In this document: positions 43,054 through 48,253 of the stretch, one piece after another
Position numbering within the stretch: the first letter of the stretch is position 1
Layout: the number at the start of each line of letters is the position of its first letter
Origin: an uncultured Pelagibacteraceae bacterium
Lineage (GTDB): Bacteria > Pseudomonadota > Alphaproteobacteria > Pelagibacterales > Pelagibacteraceae
Length of the DNA: 48,763 nucleotides
Direction of reading: 5' to 3'
Assembly: GCA_902594915.1 (NCBI GenBank)
Contig: CACJOA010000008.1
Span: 1-48,763 of the forward strand
The notes under the pieces: model-generated
Seen by the model: only the letters and a program-made list of their open reading frames with translations
Databases searched by the model: none
Told to the model about the DNA's origin: nothing
Translations under genes and position numbers: made by a program

Positions 43054-44139
43054 ATGATAAAATTTTTAGATATTTATAAGCAAGATAGAAGATTACATAA
43101 AAAGATTTTATTTGATTTAAATAAAATTTTTATAAAAGGTGATTTTATTCTAGGTAATGATGTAAAAAAATTTGAAAAAAATTTTGCCAAATTTTGTAAT
43201 TCTAAATTTGCCATTGGTTGTGCAAATGGTACTGATGCTCTTACAATTGCTCTTAAATCTTTAAATCTAAAAAAGAATTCTGAAGTGATTATTCCAGCTA
43301 TGACCTATTGTTCAACAGCATTCTCTGTATTGAACGCGAATCTTAAACCAGTATTAGTAGATACGGGTTTTTTATCTTCTACGATTGATATTGATAAAAT
43401 TAAAAGAAAAATTACAAAAAAGACTAAAGTTATAATGCCTGTACATCTTTATGGTTCAGTAACAAATATAAGTCAAATAAAAAAATTAATTAATAATAAA
43501 AATATATTTATAATAGATGACTGTGCTCAAGCACATGGTGCGTCTGATGATAAAGGAAAAAAAGTTGGATCTATTGCGGATATATCTACATTTAGTCTTT
43601 ATCCAGGTAAAAATTTAGGAGCTTATGGAGACGCTGGTATAATAACTACTAATTCAAATGTTATAAATAAAAAGATTAGAAAAATCAGAAATTTAGGATC
43701 AGAAAAAAAATTTATTCACGATACTATCGGATATAATAGTAGATTAGATACTATTCAAGCAATAATCTTAAATCACAAATTAAAAAATTTAAAAAAATTA
43801 AATCAAAAGAGAAAAAAAATTGCAAAAAAATATGATAGATTTATATTTAATAAAAAAATAAAAAAAATTAGATATTCAAAAAATTGTATATATCATCAAT
43901 ATGTAATTTTAACTAAATATAGAAGTAAGCTAATAAAATTGTTTAAACAAAAAAAAATACAATATGGTTTTCATTATCCGTATCCAATACATAAATTAAA
44001 AGTTTTCAAAAGTTATTTTAAAACACAAAAATTTAAAAATTCTGAAACACTAGCGAAAGAAGGCATAAGTCTTCCAATAGATCCAAATTTATCAAATAAA
44101 GAGGTGTCAATAATTATAAATACAATAAATAAATTGTAA
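43054..44139 (+). CDS. DegT/DnrJ/EryC1/StrS-family sugar aminotransferase
   Basis: PLP-dependent enzyme that transaminates a keto-sugar nucleotide. 361 aa. The Schiff-base lysine is Lys186 in SLYPGKNLGAYGDAG. Phosphate and ring contacts appear in ANGTDALTIAL (58-68), DDCAQAHGA (155-163), and the GYNSRLDTIQA segment. The YPGKNLGA(L/Y)GDAG form is typical of 3-aminotransferases (QdtB/WbpE). With the Gfo/Idh and LbH proteins nearby it suggests formation of a 3-acylamino sugar. It starts one base after the previous stop. Confidence 0.93.
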   Translation: MIKFLDIYKQDRRLHKKILFDLNKIFIKGDFILGNDVKKFEKNFAKFCNSKFAIGCANGTDALTIALKSLNLKKNSEVIIPAMTYCSTAFSVLNANLKPVLVDTGFLSSTIDIDKIKRKITKKTKVIMPVHLYGSVTNISQIKKLINNKNIFIIDDCAQAHGASDDKGKKVGSIADISTFSLYPGKNLGAYGDAGIITTNSNVINKKIRKIRNLGSEKKFIHDTIGYNSRLDTIQAIILNHKLKNLKKLNQKRKKIAKKYDRFIFNKKIKKIRYSKNCIYHQYVILTKYRSKLIKLFKQKKIQYGFHYPYPIHKLKVFKSYFKTQKFKNSETLAKEGISLPIDPNLSNKEVSIIINTINKL

Positions 44140-44152
44140 AAAAGGCTTAATA

Positions 44153-45199
44153 ATGAATTATCAAGAGGAAATTGTAGTGTTTAAGAATGATAGAATTGGT
44201 GATTTAATGACAAGTGTTCCTGCTTTGAGAATTTTAATAAAAGAAAATAAAGATAAATTAATTACAATCTTTTTATCTAAAATTAATCATAAAATCAGAT
44301 TTTTATTTGAAAATGAGAATGTGAATATAATAATTACTAATTATAATCTAAGTTTGAAAGATAGGTTAATAATAATTACGTACTTGATAAAAAAAAAAGT
44401 TTCAAAAGTATTTATTATTAGGCCTAAAAATTTTTTTTTTTATCTACCACTTATCTTTTTTTTTAAAAAAACAAAATTTTATGGTCTTTGTGTAAATGAC
44501 AAAAATAATTATAAAAGACCTAATACTTTATTAAGAAAACTTTTATTTAAAAAAGTAATTAATGATAGAAATACTAAATTAATAAGACCCACAAGAAAAC
44601 AATTACAAATCGATTTAGTGACCGACAAAAAAATATTAAAAAAAACTCAAAATGAATTTAATTTAGTCATATCTGAAGAACTAAAAAATATACTTCCAAA
44701 AAGTTATTGTTTGATACATTACAAACATTTAATGTTTGATAATTTAAGTTGGGGTAGGGAAGGTGTCGATAAAATTATTAAACATTTATTATTAAATTTT
44801 CCAAATGTAATTTTAATTAATGATATCGATAGAAATAATGATAATGATTATTTTAGAAATAAATATGATTGGTACGATTTTAAAACTAAAAAAAAAAATT
44901 TAACAAATAAAAACATATTATATTTTGAAAATATAGATGGTATTGATTTAGCATGTTGCATAAATTATTCAAAAGTTACTATTGCTTGCCATGGTACTAT
45001 TACTCTATTAGGGGATATCTTAAATAAACCAGTATTGGATCTATTTTATTGTTCTATCAATAACAAAAACGATTTTTATCGATATAAAAATTCATTTCAT
45101 GAACATGTACCAAATAATAATAATTATAATTTTATAATTCCAAAAGATGATATAAACAAAACAATTGATAAGATGAACTTTGCTCTTAAAAATGAATAA
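44153..45199 (+). CDS. Glycosyltransferase family 9 protein (heptosyltransferase-like)
   Basis: 348 aa of GT-B fold. The N-terminal motif VVFKNDRIGDLMTSVPALR (about 8-26) and the C-terminal CHGTITLLGDILNKPVLDLF (about 280-299) are the GT9 signatures, the latter in place of the usual GPDTG...GKP. These enzymes add heptose or related sugars to lipid A core. The gene contains unusually long homopolymers: A10 at 44389-44398, T11 at 44431-44441 and T9 at 44456-44464, in the region coding for FFFYLPLIFFFKK. The frame is open. Confidence 0.85.
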   Translation: MNYQEEIVVFKNDRIGDLMTSVPALRILIKENKDKLITIFLSKINHKIRFLFENENVNIIITNYNLSLKDRLIIITYLIKKKVSKVFIIRPKNFFFYLPLIFFFKKTKFYGLCVNDKNNYKRPNTLLRKLLFKKVINDRNTKLIRPTRKQLQIDLVTDKKILKKTQNEFNLVISEELKNILPKSYCLIHYKHLMFDNLSWGREGVDKIIKHLLLNFPNVILINDIDRNNDNDYFRNKYDWYDFKTKKKNLTNKNILYFENIDGIDLACCINYSKVTIACHGTITLLGDILNKPVLDLFYCSINNKNDFYRYKNSFHEHVPNNNNYNFIIPKDDINKTIDKMNFALKNE

Positions 45200-46127
45200 A
45201 TTTATTGTAAGAATATCTAATGAGATAGGCAATCAAATGTTTATGTATGCATCATCTTTCGCAATTGCAAAAAAATTGAATAGGTCACTTTACATTGATG
45301 ATGAAACGGCTTTTTTAACAAGAAAGAATATTAGCAAATATGCACTAAATAATTTCAATCTTTCAACTAAAACTGCAGTTAAAAAAGATAAATTTATAGG
45401 TGTTATTGGTTATATAAAAAGAAAAATATTAAAGAAGGTCAATCCATTTTTAAGAAAAAAAGTTTTTTATATTGAGCCAAAAAATTTCGATAAAATATCC
45501 AATTTTGATGAAAAAATTTTTAATATAACATTAGCTCATAAAACTTATTTAGAGGGGTATTTTGAGACAGAAAAATATTTTAAAGATTTAAAAGAAGTCA
45601 TATTAAATGAATTTTCATTTATAGATGCTATGACTTTTAAAAAAAATAAATTTTATAATGAATTAATTAAAAAAAATAGTGTTTCAATTTGTTTAAGGCA
45701 AAATAGATTTATTGAGGGAAAAAATCCCAAAAATTTAGATCTAATCAATTTGTCTAATCAATTTCGGGATGAACAAATTAAATATATCAATAAATCAATT
45801 GATTATATAAAAAAAGAAGTAGATCATCCAACTTTCTATTTATGGTCAAATGATTTAGACAATGTAGATATGTCTCAATTTAAATCAAATATAACTAAGA
45901 TTTATCATAATAATGATCAAAAAAATATTGACAAACGCGCTTTAGATCTATTTTTAATTTCTCAATGTAATCACCACATTACAATACCCTCATCTTTTAA
46001 TTGGTGGGGTGCTTGGCTTTCATCAAGCAAAAATGGTATTATTTGTCGACCCGATGATAATTTTTTTTCAAATTTTCAAATTAATAATAAAGATTTTTGG
46101 CCTAATAATTGGATTAAAATATCATGA
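45192..46127 (+). CDS. Alpha-1,2-fucosyltransferase-like glycosyltransferase (GT11)
   Basis: 311 aa from the ATG at 45192. A TTG at 45180 is less likely. The opening GNQMFMYASSFAIAKKL (about 14-30) and the DWxxxPSSFNWWGAWLS-like block (ITIPSSFNWWGAW) are GT11 features, as is DQKNIDKRALDLFLISQC. The central motif, usually HxRRGDY, reads ICLRQNRF, so the histidine and the second arginine pair are changed while one arginine stays. The acceptor is unknown. It overlaps the GT9 gene by 8 bases and the methyltransferase by 4. Confidence 0.87.
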   Translation: MNKFIVRISNEIGNQMFMYASSFAIAKKLNRSLYIDDETAFLTRKNISKYALNNFNLSTKTAVKKDKFIGVIGYIKRKILKKVNPFLRKKVFYIEPKNFDKISNFDEKIFNITLAHKTYLEGYFETEKYFKDLKEVILNEFSFIDAMTFKKNKFYNELIKKNSVSICLRQNRFIEGKNPKNLDLINLSNQFRDEQIKYINKSIDYIKKEVDHPTFYLWSNDLDNVDMSQFKSNITKIYHNNDQKNIDKRALDLFLISQCNHHITIPSSFNWWGAWLSSSKNGIICRPDDNFFSNFQINNKDFWPNNWIKIS

Positions 46128-46807
46128 ATTTGATAGAAATAGGAAAAAAATATCCATCTAGTAAAAATATTTCTGGGTTTATACAGTTATATGAAAAATA
46201 TTTTACGCCATTAAGAGATTCAGAAATAAATATACTTGAAATTGGTGTTGATAATGGAGATAGTTTACGTATTTGGCGAGAATTTTTTTCAAAAGCAAAT
46301 ATTTGTGGGATAGATATTGATAAAAAAAATTTTAAAATAAATAATACAAATATTCTTCAAGGTGATCAATCAGACCTGAATTTTTTAAAAAGTTTAGTTA
46401 GTGAATATAAAAAATTTGACATTATCATTGATGATGGGAGCCATCAAGCCAAACATATTATTACTTCTTTCAATTATTTATTTACTTATTTAAATAATAA
46501 TGGCTTGTATGTAATTGAAGATCTTCAAACATCTTATATACCTAGGTATGGCGGATCTAGAATAAATCTTAGAAAAAAAAAATCCTCAATGAATTTTGTA
46601 AAATCTTTAACAGACTCTGTCAATTACGAAAAAAATAATCGCCCTTTTTTTAAAAAGAATAAATTTGATGGATTAATTAAAGCTATAAATTTCCATCAAA
46701 ATATTGTTTTCATCAATAAGGGTGAAAGCATAAATTATTTTTATAATCAAGATTTTAAAGAAACATTTACTGACAAAATAAAAAAGTTTTTCTCCAAATT
46801 TTTTTAA
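46124..46807 (+). CDS. SAM-dependent methyltransferase (MycE/CmcI-like)
   Basis: 227 aa. Motif I LEIGVDNGDSLRIW (about 38-51), GIDID (about 62-66), and the metal-type block IIIDDGSHQAKHIITSF (about 103-119) followed by YVIEDLQTSY identify the group that includes the mycinamicin O-methyltransferase MycE and cephalosporin hydroxylase CmcI. In this locus O-methylation of a sugar is the simplest role. The stop overlaps the end of the integrase gene tail to tail by 4 bases. Confidence 0.87.
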   Translation: MNLIEIGKKYPSSKNISGFIQLYEKYFTPLRDSEINILEIGVDNGDSLRIWREFFSKANICGIDIDKKNFKINNTNILQGDQSDLNFLKSLVSEYKKFDIIIDDGSHQAKHIITSFNYLFTYLNNNGLYVIEDLQTSYIPRYGGSRINLRKKKSSMNFVKSLTDSVNYEKNNRPFFKKNKFDGLIKAINFHQNIVFINKGESINYFYNQDFKETFTDKIKKFFSKFF

Positions 46808-47718
46808 ATTTTTATTTTATTTAATGCATTATTTTTAAATAAATTTGCTTCTTGGATATATCTTCTTACCATTTGAGTTGTTTTATGACCTGTCATTGCC
46901 ATAATACTTCTTTCATCTGCACCAATTTCAGCTGTTGATGTCGCAAATCCAGATCTCAAACTATGACCTGCATATTTTGTTTTATCCAACCCAGCTAATA
47001 GTGCATATTTTTGAATTGTTAAAGCTACTGTTTTGTCAGATATATTGAATACTTTACCGTTGATAATTTTGGCATGTGTAATCCATTTTTTTAAAGATAT
47101 AACGGGACAATAAATTTTATTTTCGAAGTAGGGGATTGCCTTAGTCATTCCTAGACCAGTTTGGTCTGTTTTTGACCTTCTTACCAATATTTTTACTCCT
47201 TCATTAACAAAATCAATATCCGTATATTCAATTGATACTAATTCTGATCTTCTAAAGCCGCCTGCAAATCCAATTAATAATAAAGCTCGATTTTGATACT
47301 TTTTATATACATTTTTATCTTGATCTATTACATTAATAATTAATTTTAAATCATTGATTAATAATGGTTTTTTAGATATTTGTTTAACCCCCATCTTTCT
47401 TTTTATTCCCATTAAATTTTCAGCAATGATTGGATGTTTTGTATCGATATAATGCCCTTTTAATCTATGAATTACTTTTATTGAGGCCAATCTTCTTTTT
47501 AAAGTGCTAAATTTACTAAATGCACTTAAATGCGTGAGATATAATGCTATTATTTTTGGATCAGTTGGTAATGATTTTAAACCATTCTTTGTACAAAACT
47601 CTGTAAAATCTTTGAAATCTGCCTGATAAGCTCTCAAAGTGTTGTACGCTTTTGAATTCTTTAAATTTTTTAAAGTTTCTAATTCAAGGCTTTTTACGTC
47701 AGTAATTAAATCATTCAT
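46804..47718 (-). CDS. Tyrosine recombinase/integrase
   Basis: 304-aa site-specific recombinase. An N-terminal SAM-like core-binding domain (about 1-110, with NTLRAYQADFKDFTEFC) is followed by the catalytic domain. The active residues are Arg in GGFRRSELV, Lys in VRRSKTD, HSLRSGFAT (His/Arg), the TGH of MTGHKTTQM, and the nucleophile Tyr in RRYIQEAN. It is of Xer/phage size. It sits at the edge of the glycan region, with an inverted repeat immediately before its start (47725-47749). It may have mobilised or rearranged this segment, but no att duplication was found. Confidence 0.93.
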   Translation of the reverse strand: MNDLITDVKSLELETLKNLKNSKAYNTLRAYQADFKDFTEFCTKNGLKSLPTDPKIIALYLTHLSAFSKFSTLKRRLASIKVIHRLKGHYIDTKHPIIAENLMGIKRKMGVKQISKKPLLINDLKLIINVIDQDKNVYKKYQNRALLLIGFAGGFRRSELVSIEYTDIDFVNEGVKILVRRSKTDQTGLGMTKAIPYFENKIYCPVISLKKWITHAKIINGKVFNISDKTVALTIQKYALLAGLDKTKYAGHSLRSGFATSTAEIGADERSIMAMTGHKTTQMVRRYIQEANLFKNNALNKIKI

Positions 47719-47724
47719 ATTATT

Positions 47725-47749
47725 TTCCGATAACCATTAATTATCGGAA
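47725..47749. repeat. Inverted repeat (9-bp arms, 7-bp spacer) upstream of the integrase
   Basis: TTCCGATAA (47725-47733) and TTATCGGAA (47741-47749) are perfect inverted arms around CCATTAA. The site starts 7 bases upstream of the integrase ATG. Arm and spacer sizes fit a tyrosine-recombinase core site (7 is the lambda Int overlap length). An autoregulatory operator or an mRNA leader hairpin is equally possible. Confidence 0.55.
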
Positions 47750-47798
47750 TTAATATATTAGATGATTTTAAATGTCAATAGTTTAAATTATAAAAATT

Positions 47799-47975
47799 AT
47801 GGGTTCAGTTGATGGAGAAATTCCTGCCGTTTGGTTTTTGATAACATCTTTTGGTTTTATAATTTTAAGCTATATTCAATATAGAAATTACGGTAGAAGC
47901 TTAGAAACTATATTTTTATCTTTATTAGCCATCTTATTTTTTTTAAGTTACTTTATACTAGTTTTTAAAGCATAA
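47799..47975 (+). CDS. Small two-helix membrane protein (58 aa)
   Basis: An ATG-to-TAA frame codes for 58 residues in the 535-base interval between the integrase and the methyltransferase gene. Two hydrophobic helices (about 10-26 and 37-56) are separated by a charged turn (YRNYGRSLE). The N-terminus is acidic (GSVDGE). Codon use looks like the neighbours. No homologous family is recognised. It lacks a strong ribosome-binding site, which is normal here. Confidence 0.55.
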   Translation: MGSVDGEIPAVWFLITSFGFIILSYIQYRNYGRSLETIFLSLLAILFFLSYFILVFKA

Positions 47976-48056
47976 TTATCCCCACTATTCACAAGAAATT
48001 GGATGTTAAGTGAAAATCAATTATAAAGTGATGTTAAATTCAACTATTATCTAGTA

Positions 48057-48237
48057 ATTTTAATCTGAATTAAGAGGCAACTCTTAACTGGCCAGCTAAA
48101 GAAAAGCCGAGAGGTACAATTTTAGAGGGCAGAAAGCTTCACAAAGCATCGCTGAACATGTGAGGCGGGTGGCATGGCGGTAGCGCATCAACGACGTGCC
48201 AAAACTACTATTCTTTGCATTGAAAAGTGCAAAGAAT
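48057..48237 (+). ncRNA. Candidate structured RNA of unassigned family
   Basis: No long protein frame. Counting 48071-48200 gives 67 G or C of 130 (about 52%), far above the surroundings. By eye five hairpins form: 48070-48087 (7 bp, GCAA loop); 48091-48130 (GCC and CTAAA helices joined by tandem A-G/G-A, with inner GCC-GAGA-GGT); 48136-48166 (8 bp with an inner 3-bp hairpin); 48171-48200 (6 bp, inner GCG-GTAG-CGC); 48210-48237 (10 bp). GNRA loops and G-U pairs favour the + strand. It does not show RNase P, SRP, tmRNA or 6S hallmarks. Either a free RNA or a leader of the gene at 48254. The 5' end is uncertain (a TATTAT at 48045-48050 is a weak -10). Confidence 0.7.
48210..48237 (+). other. 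10-bp stem-loop just before the methyltransferase gene
   Basis: ATTCTTTGCA (48210-48219) pairs with TGCAAAGAAT (48228-48237) around an 8-base loop. No T tract follows, so it is not a classical terminator. It ends 16 bases before the ATG at 48254 and could be the 3' hairpin of the RNA above or a translation-control element. Confidence 0.6.
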
Positions 48238-48253
48238 TAGGGTTTATCCTAAA

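Follow-up and report, generated by a model that had tools for sequence, protein, structure and literature searches.

The GC-rich block that lies between an integrase gene and an alkyltransferase gene (ogt) near the end of the window (the whole stretch of 48,763 nucleotides from an uncultured Pelagibacteraceae bacterium analyzed here) is a real structured RNA of IMES-2, a marine family catalogued with its function unknown. In a cmscan search with all Rfam models, RF02035 (IMES-2) matched full length at positions 48063-48202 of the + strand (143.5 bits, E 1.1e-38, model positions 1-141; the curated cut-off is 54.7 bits) and was the sole model scoring within the RNA interval. The first-pass annotation, which had recognized no RNA family in this block, was thus mistaken, and the significant Rfam match ends the novelty of the family on the terms that the annotation itself had set. 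Weinberg and colleagues reportedly described IMES-2 in 2009 as an abundant transcript in ocean metatranscriptomes. IMES-2 is therefore already known as a family; new beyond Rfam are a kissing helix (judged against the Rfam model alone), a control region with tandem boxes, the accessory status of the RNA, and mosaic 3' halves. Among open papers, IMES-2 is named in a single unrelated one and RF02035 in none. We consider it probable (roughly 0.6) that IMES-2 is here a noncoding RNA gene, present once and transcribed independently, that acts in trans and likely binds protein.

Several features drawn from the bare sequence proved accurate. The block at 48071-48200 has exactly the 67 G or C among 130 bases that had been counted, in a window with a mean of 26% GC; only 5 of 48,634 stretches of 130 bases reach 67 G+C, every one of them at the IMES-2 block, which is the richest in the window. 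The proposed + strand orientation stands because the + strand fold (-56 kcal/mol, z -4.2) was equaled by none of 200 shuffles, whereas the - strand fold does not outperform them (z -1.2, 27/200 shuffles as good). The five hairpins proposed are likewise found, four within the RNA and the fifth as a terminator-type hairpin downstream, as are the two GNRA loops, GCAA and GAGA. In contrast, the tandem A-G/G-A junction is present in the window copy without being a conserved feature; a Watson-Crick pair takes its place in many relatives.

The fold shares with RF02035 four hairpins, conserved GNRA loops, the GCAGAAA linker, and the GUAGCGC loops, and its four-hairpin consensus displays covariation. 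Hairpin 1 (48070-48087) matches the model, with 100% of its cells paired in the alignment, and ends in the GNRA loop GCAA, which in relatives is GCAA, GCGA, GUGA, or GUAA. Hairpin 2 (48088-48132), with an internal loop and the GAGA tetraloop, hairpin 3 (48136-48166), bearing kissing loop 1, and hairpin 4 (48171-48200), bearing kissing loop 2, are each supported by the model match and by covariation; all four are on the + strand. In structure alignments of 49 and 100 IMES-2 copies, compensatory changes are seen in all helices: 97.4% of cells are paired, and 33 of 40 pairs are changed on both sides in the alignment of homologues. Double-change cells number 630, compared with 166 in shuffles; no shuffle comes near this value, and versions in which the pairing was slid all score far lower.

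In the Rfam model the two GUAGCGC loops carry no pairing, whereas in the present alignments they are paired with each other, and covariation shows a kissing pseudoknot that joins the loop of hairpin 3 to that of hairpin 4. In the window, the two strands would be AUCGCU (48148-48153, +) and AGCGCAU (48182-48188, +); as AUCGCU:AGCG(C)AU contains a U-C mismatch unless one C bulges, the window copy probably pairs with one C bulged out. The compensatory loop types comprise GCGC:GCGC (63 copies by alignment columns), GCAC:GUGC (9), GUAC:GUAC (7), GUGC:GCAC (4), and the rarer GUUC:GAAC (2) and GAAC:GUUC (1); UCGC:GCGC occurs 11 times, and GCGC:GCGA (2) and UCGC:GCGA (1) are again rare. Since GUGC and GCAC are not self-complementary, those types require hairpin 3 to contact hairpin 4. 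The U-A pair that follows the four-base core is almost invariant. Taken alone, the five kissing pairs show 34 double changes versus 5.4 in shuffled alignments, with 97.1% paired, and their register is the best among all slides for both pairing and covariation. Two cruder measures for this small helix, the count of double-change pairs and the count of pair types, were not significant. On a tree of the neighboring MnmA protein, the loop type changes at least 13 times.

The regions flanking the RNA suggest that it has its own transcription signals. Upstream, at 47976-47993 (+), two tandem DnaA-box-like 9-mers, TTATCCCCA and CTATTCACA, constitute a putative operator. Of 134 distinct upstream regions, 112 carry such tandem 9-mers (TTATCCACA followed by TTMACA) approximately 65-90 nt upstream of the RNA, against a mean of 0.2 after shuffling, and outside IMES-2 loci a relaxed form of the tandem pattern is no more frequent than a control pattern. 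A TTATNCACA box with at most one mismatch is found in 123 of the 134 regions, although the DnaA-box consensus used may not be that of SAR11 itself. The boxes are conserved even at IMES-2 loci with different flanking genes. A reading of the boxes as part of oriC was rejected: perfect TTATCCACA sites are isolated and form no cluster in three SAR11 genomes. A regulator recognizing tandem TTATCCACA-type boxes presumably controls IMES-2. Between the boxes and the RNA, the aligned upstream regions contain the conserved -35-like element AGTGAT (48027-48032, +) within the conserved ATCAACTAWAAAGTGATA; in 125 copies it starts 35-38 nt before the RNA, a spacing that fits a -35 element with transcription starting close to base 1 of the RNA model. 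The putative -10 region is TATCTAGTAAT (48048-48058, +), which in relatives reads TATGAT or TATGTT. A scan with the sigma-70 consensus did not recover this proposed promoter.

At the other end, a terminator-type hairpin (48208-48237, +) is conserved among the copies; in the window copy, the U-run after it is weak (GGGUUUAUCC). Across 148 copies, the hairpin has a mean of -21.5 kcal/mol (z -5.4), a run of at least four T is present in 113, and the hairpin is kept in every gene setting. Transcription would thus start near 48063 and end near 48240, giving an RNA of approximately 180 nt; given the poor U-run of the window's terminator, some read-through into ogt is possible.

IMES-2 is restricted to Pelagibacteraceae. 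Of 147 Pelagibacteraceae genomes searched with the family model, 98 hold one copy each, representing 12 of 14 genera, and the window copy likewise has a marine bacterial source, with relatives that all belong to Pelagibacteraceae. In a class-wide sample of 289 genomes, our own model (R1) gave no match outside Pelagibacteraceae at E<=0.001, under strict filters by which weak matches may be lost. Pattern matching across 84,980 species genomes yielded at least 80 loci, and all those listed are from Pelagibacteraceae and score as IMES-2. Three pattern scans of viral contigs found no IMES-2: matches to the loose pattern scored as not IMES-2, and the two tighter ones brought up either nothing or unrelated sequences, so a viral origin was set aside.

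The gene neighborhood takes more than one form. In the genus of the window (g1), an integrase gene on the opposite strand comes first, then in many cases a small reading frame, followed by IMES-2, ogt, and a DMT-type transporter gene; the integrase beside the RNA and the alkyltransferase gene downstream, noted earlier for the window, are both confirmed there. In most other genera, IMES-2 is preceded by mnmA and followed by a convergent gene for a membrane protein, and in genera g7 and g9 the neighbors are different again. The integrase and alkyltransferase are Pfam matches, while the names mnmA and transporter come from a reading of the sequences. Within g1, the presence of IMES-2 is patchy. 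In fifteen g1 genomes without it, the integrase and ogt genes are both kept and adjacent, separated by gaps of 265-304 bases that lack the whole cassette or by other small genes instead; a hidden divergent IMES-2 was rejected for these sites, which hold only short AT-rich gaps or other genes. By parsimony, the integrase tree requires a minimum of nine switches between presence and absence, of which well-supported branches force only two, and the integrase gene may itself recombine. The cell can apparently dispense with IMES-2.

What, then, does the RNA do? The first-pass annotation had placed two readings side by side, a trans-acting RNA and a leader or riboswitch controlling ogt; the structured + strand RNA underlying both holds, a role in trans is favored, and the leader is not borne out. 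A cis-acting element might be expected from the start of ogt only 40-60 bases past the RNA in g1 and from the weak U-run of the window's terminator, but this adjacency is confined to g1, most other genera having mnmA before the RNA and a convergent gene after it, and the gene that follows the RNA is not the same across species. Moreover, the terminator hairpin that separates the RNA from the gene is conserved in all settings, and the fifteen RNA-less g1 genomes retain ogt, leaving a leader scarcely credible. It is also most improbable that the RNA belongs to an element that is mobile or carried with the integrase, such as an attachment site or phage RNA. The adjoining integrase in g1 and the patchy presence would suit such an origin; however, the integrase stays whether the RNA is present or not, which makes it an incidental neighbor, and in most other genera mnmA adjoins and no integrase is found there. 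Together, the two gene settings and the RNA-less sites that keep both genes indicate that IMES-2 is neither an ogt leader nor tied to the integrase.

Two further proposals accept an independent RNA and differ in its activity. IMES-2 could be a functional stand-in for 6S RNA (RF00013), with which it would share, if the proposed role is correct, a single-copy, stand-alone gene, protein binding, and a similar length. None of 22 SAR11 genomes matches the 6S model, whereas Caulobacter and E. coli do in the same search. Nevertheless, the two RNAs have no match in sequence, structure, or covariance model, IMES-2 has no counterpart to the long, centrally bubbled helix by which an open promoter is mimicked, and some genomes have neither RNA; because 6S is missing from SAR11 genomes both with and without IMES-2, replacement is very unlikely. 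As a separate observation, 6S RNA may be absent or highly divergent in SAR11, as judged from these 22 genomes with the Rfam model. An antisense sRNA acting in trans, its loops pairing with mRNAs, is a possible but distinctly less likely reading. Such sRNAs usually come from a stand-alone gene with an intrinsic terminator and expose their hairpin loops, and IMES-2, with its terminator hairpin, shows this typical anatomy; however, its variable loop bases covary within the molecule and little free conserved sequence remains. As the fold takes up nearly all conserved bases and the variable bases of one loop match those of the other, protein binding is preferred over antisense pairing. IMES-2 would accordingly act in trans, most likely via protein binding, and the kissing contact would lock hairpins 3 and 4 next to each other into a rigid platform. 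Genome context linked no protein partner to the RNA. Strain pairs with and without IMES-2, together with the natural alleles, the kissing contact, and the operator-like boxes, make its role testable; in particular, a loop swap should be without effect only if both loops change together.

The 3' half of the RNA has been exchanged between genera. The 5' half of one g4 copy (L065) is 99% identical to that of another g4 copy, while hairpins 3-4 of L065 have their nearest counterparts (90%) in a g2 copy (L064) and a g3 copy (L055); L064 in turn combines a g2-type upstream region with a terminator that shares 90% identity with the L055 terminator. These mosaics indicate that the 3' half of IMES-2, with its loop pair, has been swapped between genera. 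Exchange of the 3' half and terminator was noted at L064, L065, L055, and L047, with the loop-loop pairing retained. A doubtful reading of this pattern is that IMES-2 is a specificity-bearing RNA under diversifying pressure, with a near-fixed 5' half and a modular 3' half. The 3' module would then consist of the two kissing hairpins and the terminator, replaced between SAR11 genera with the loops kept matched, and the cassette, with its own tandem-box operator, would be repeatedly gained and lost. Such a pattern, if true, would be expected for a target under antagonism (by phage or a rival RNA) or for an allele-typed partner.

The clue that led to this RNA has a precedent in the same group of bacteria. 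Candidate RNAs of Ca. Pelagibacter ubique HTCC1062 came to light as intergenic stretches rich in GC within an AT-rich genome (Meyer et al. 2009, PMC2704228), the discovery clue shared with IMES-2, and one of them, the SAR11_0636 element, was judged likely to be a stand-alone RNA. In contrast, none of the HTCC1062 RNAs listed in that paper is called IMES-2 or occurs in an IMES-2 setting, and several sister genomes are without IMES-2.

The surroundings of the RNA in the window are also variable. The gap between the integrase and ogt genes (46804-48253; compared across loci L179-L198) is a turnover spot that may be empty or may hold IMES-2, small reading frames, or an acetyltransferase-like gene. 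Upstream of IMES-2, at 47799-47975 (+), lies a membrane-like reading frame of 58 amino acids (MGSVDGEIPAVWFLI...), which is conserved at this spot in many relatives, RNA-less genomes included. Farther upstream, the segment at 43054-46807 contains genes that, by impression, are sugar aminotransferase-like and glycosyltransferase-like and that differ in each relative; this segment resembles a hypervariable, surface-polysaccharide-type island that ends at the integrase.
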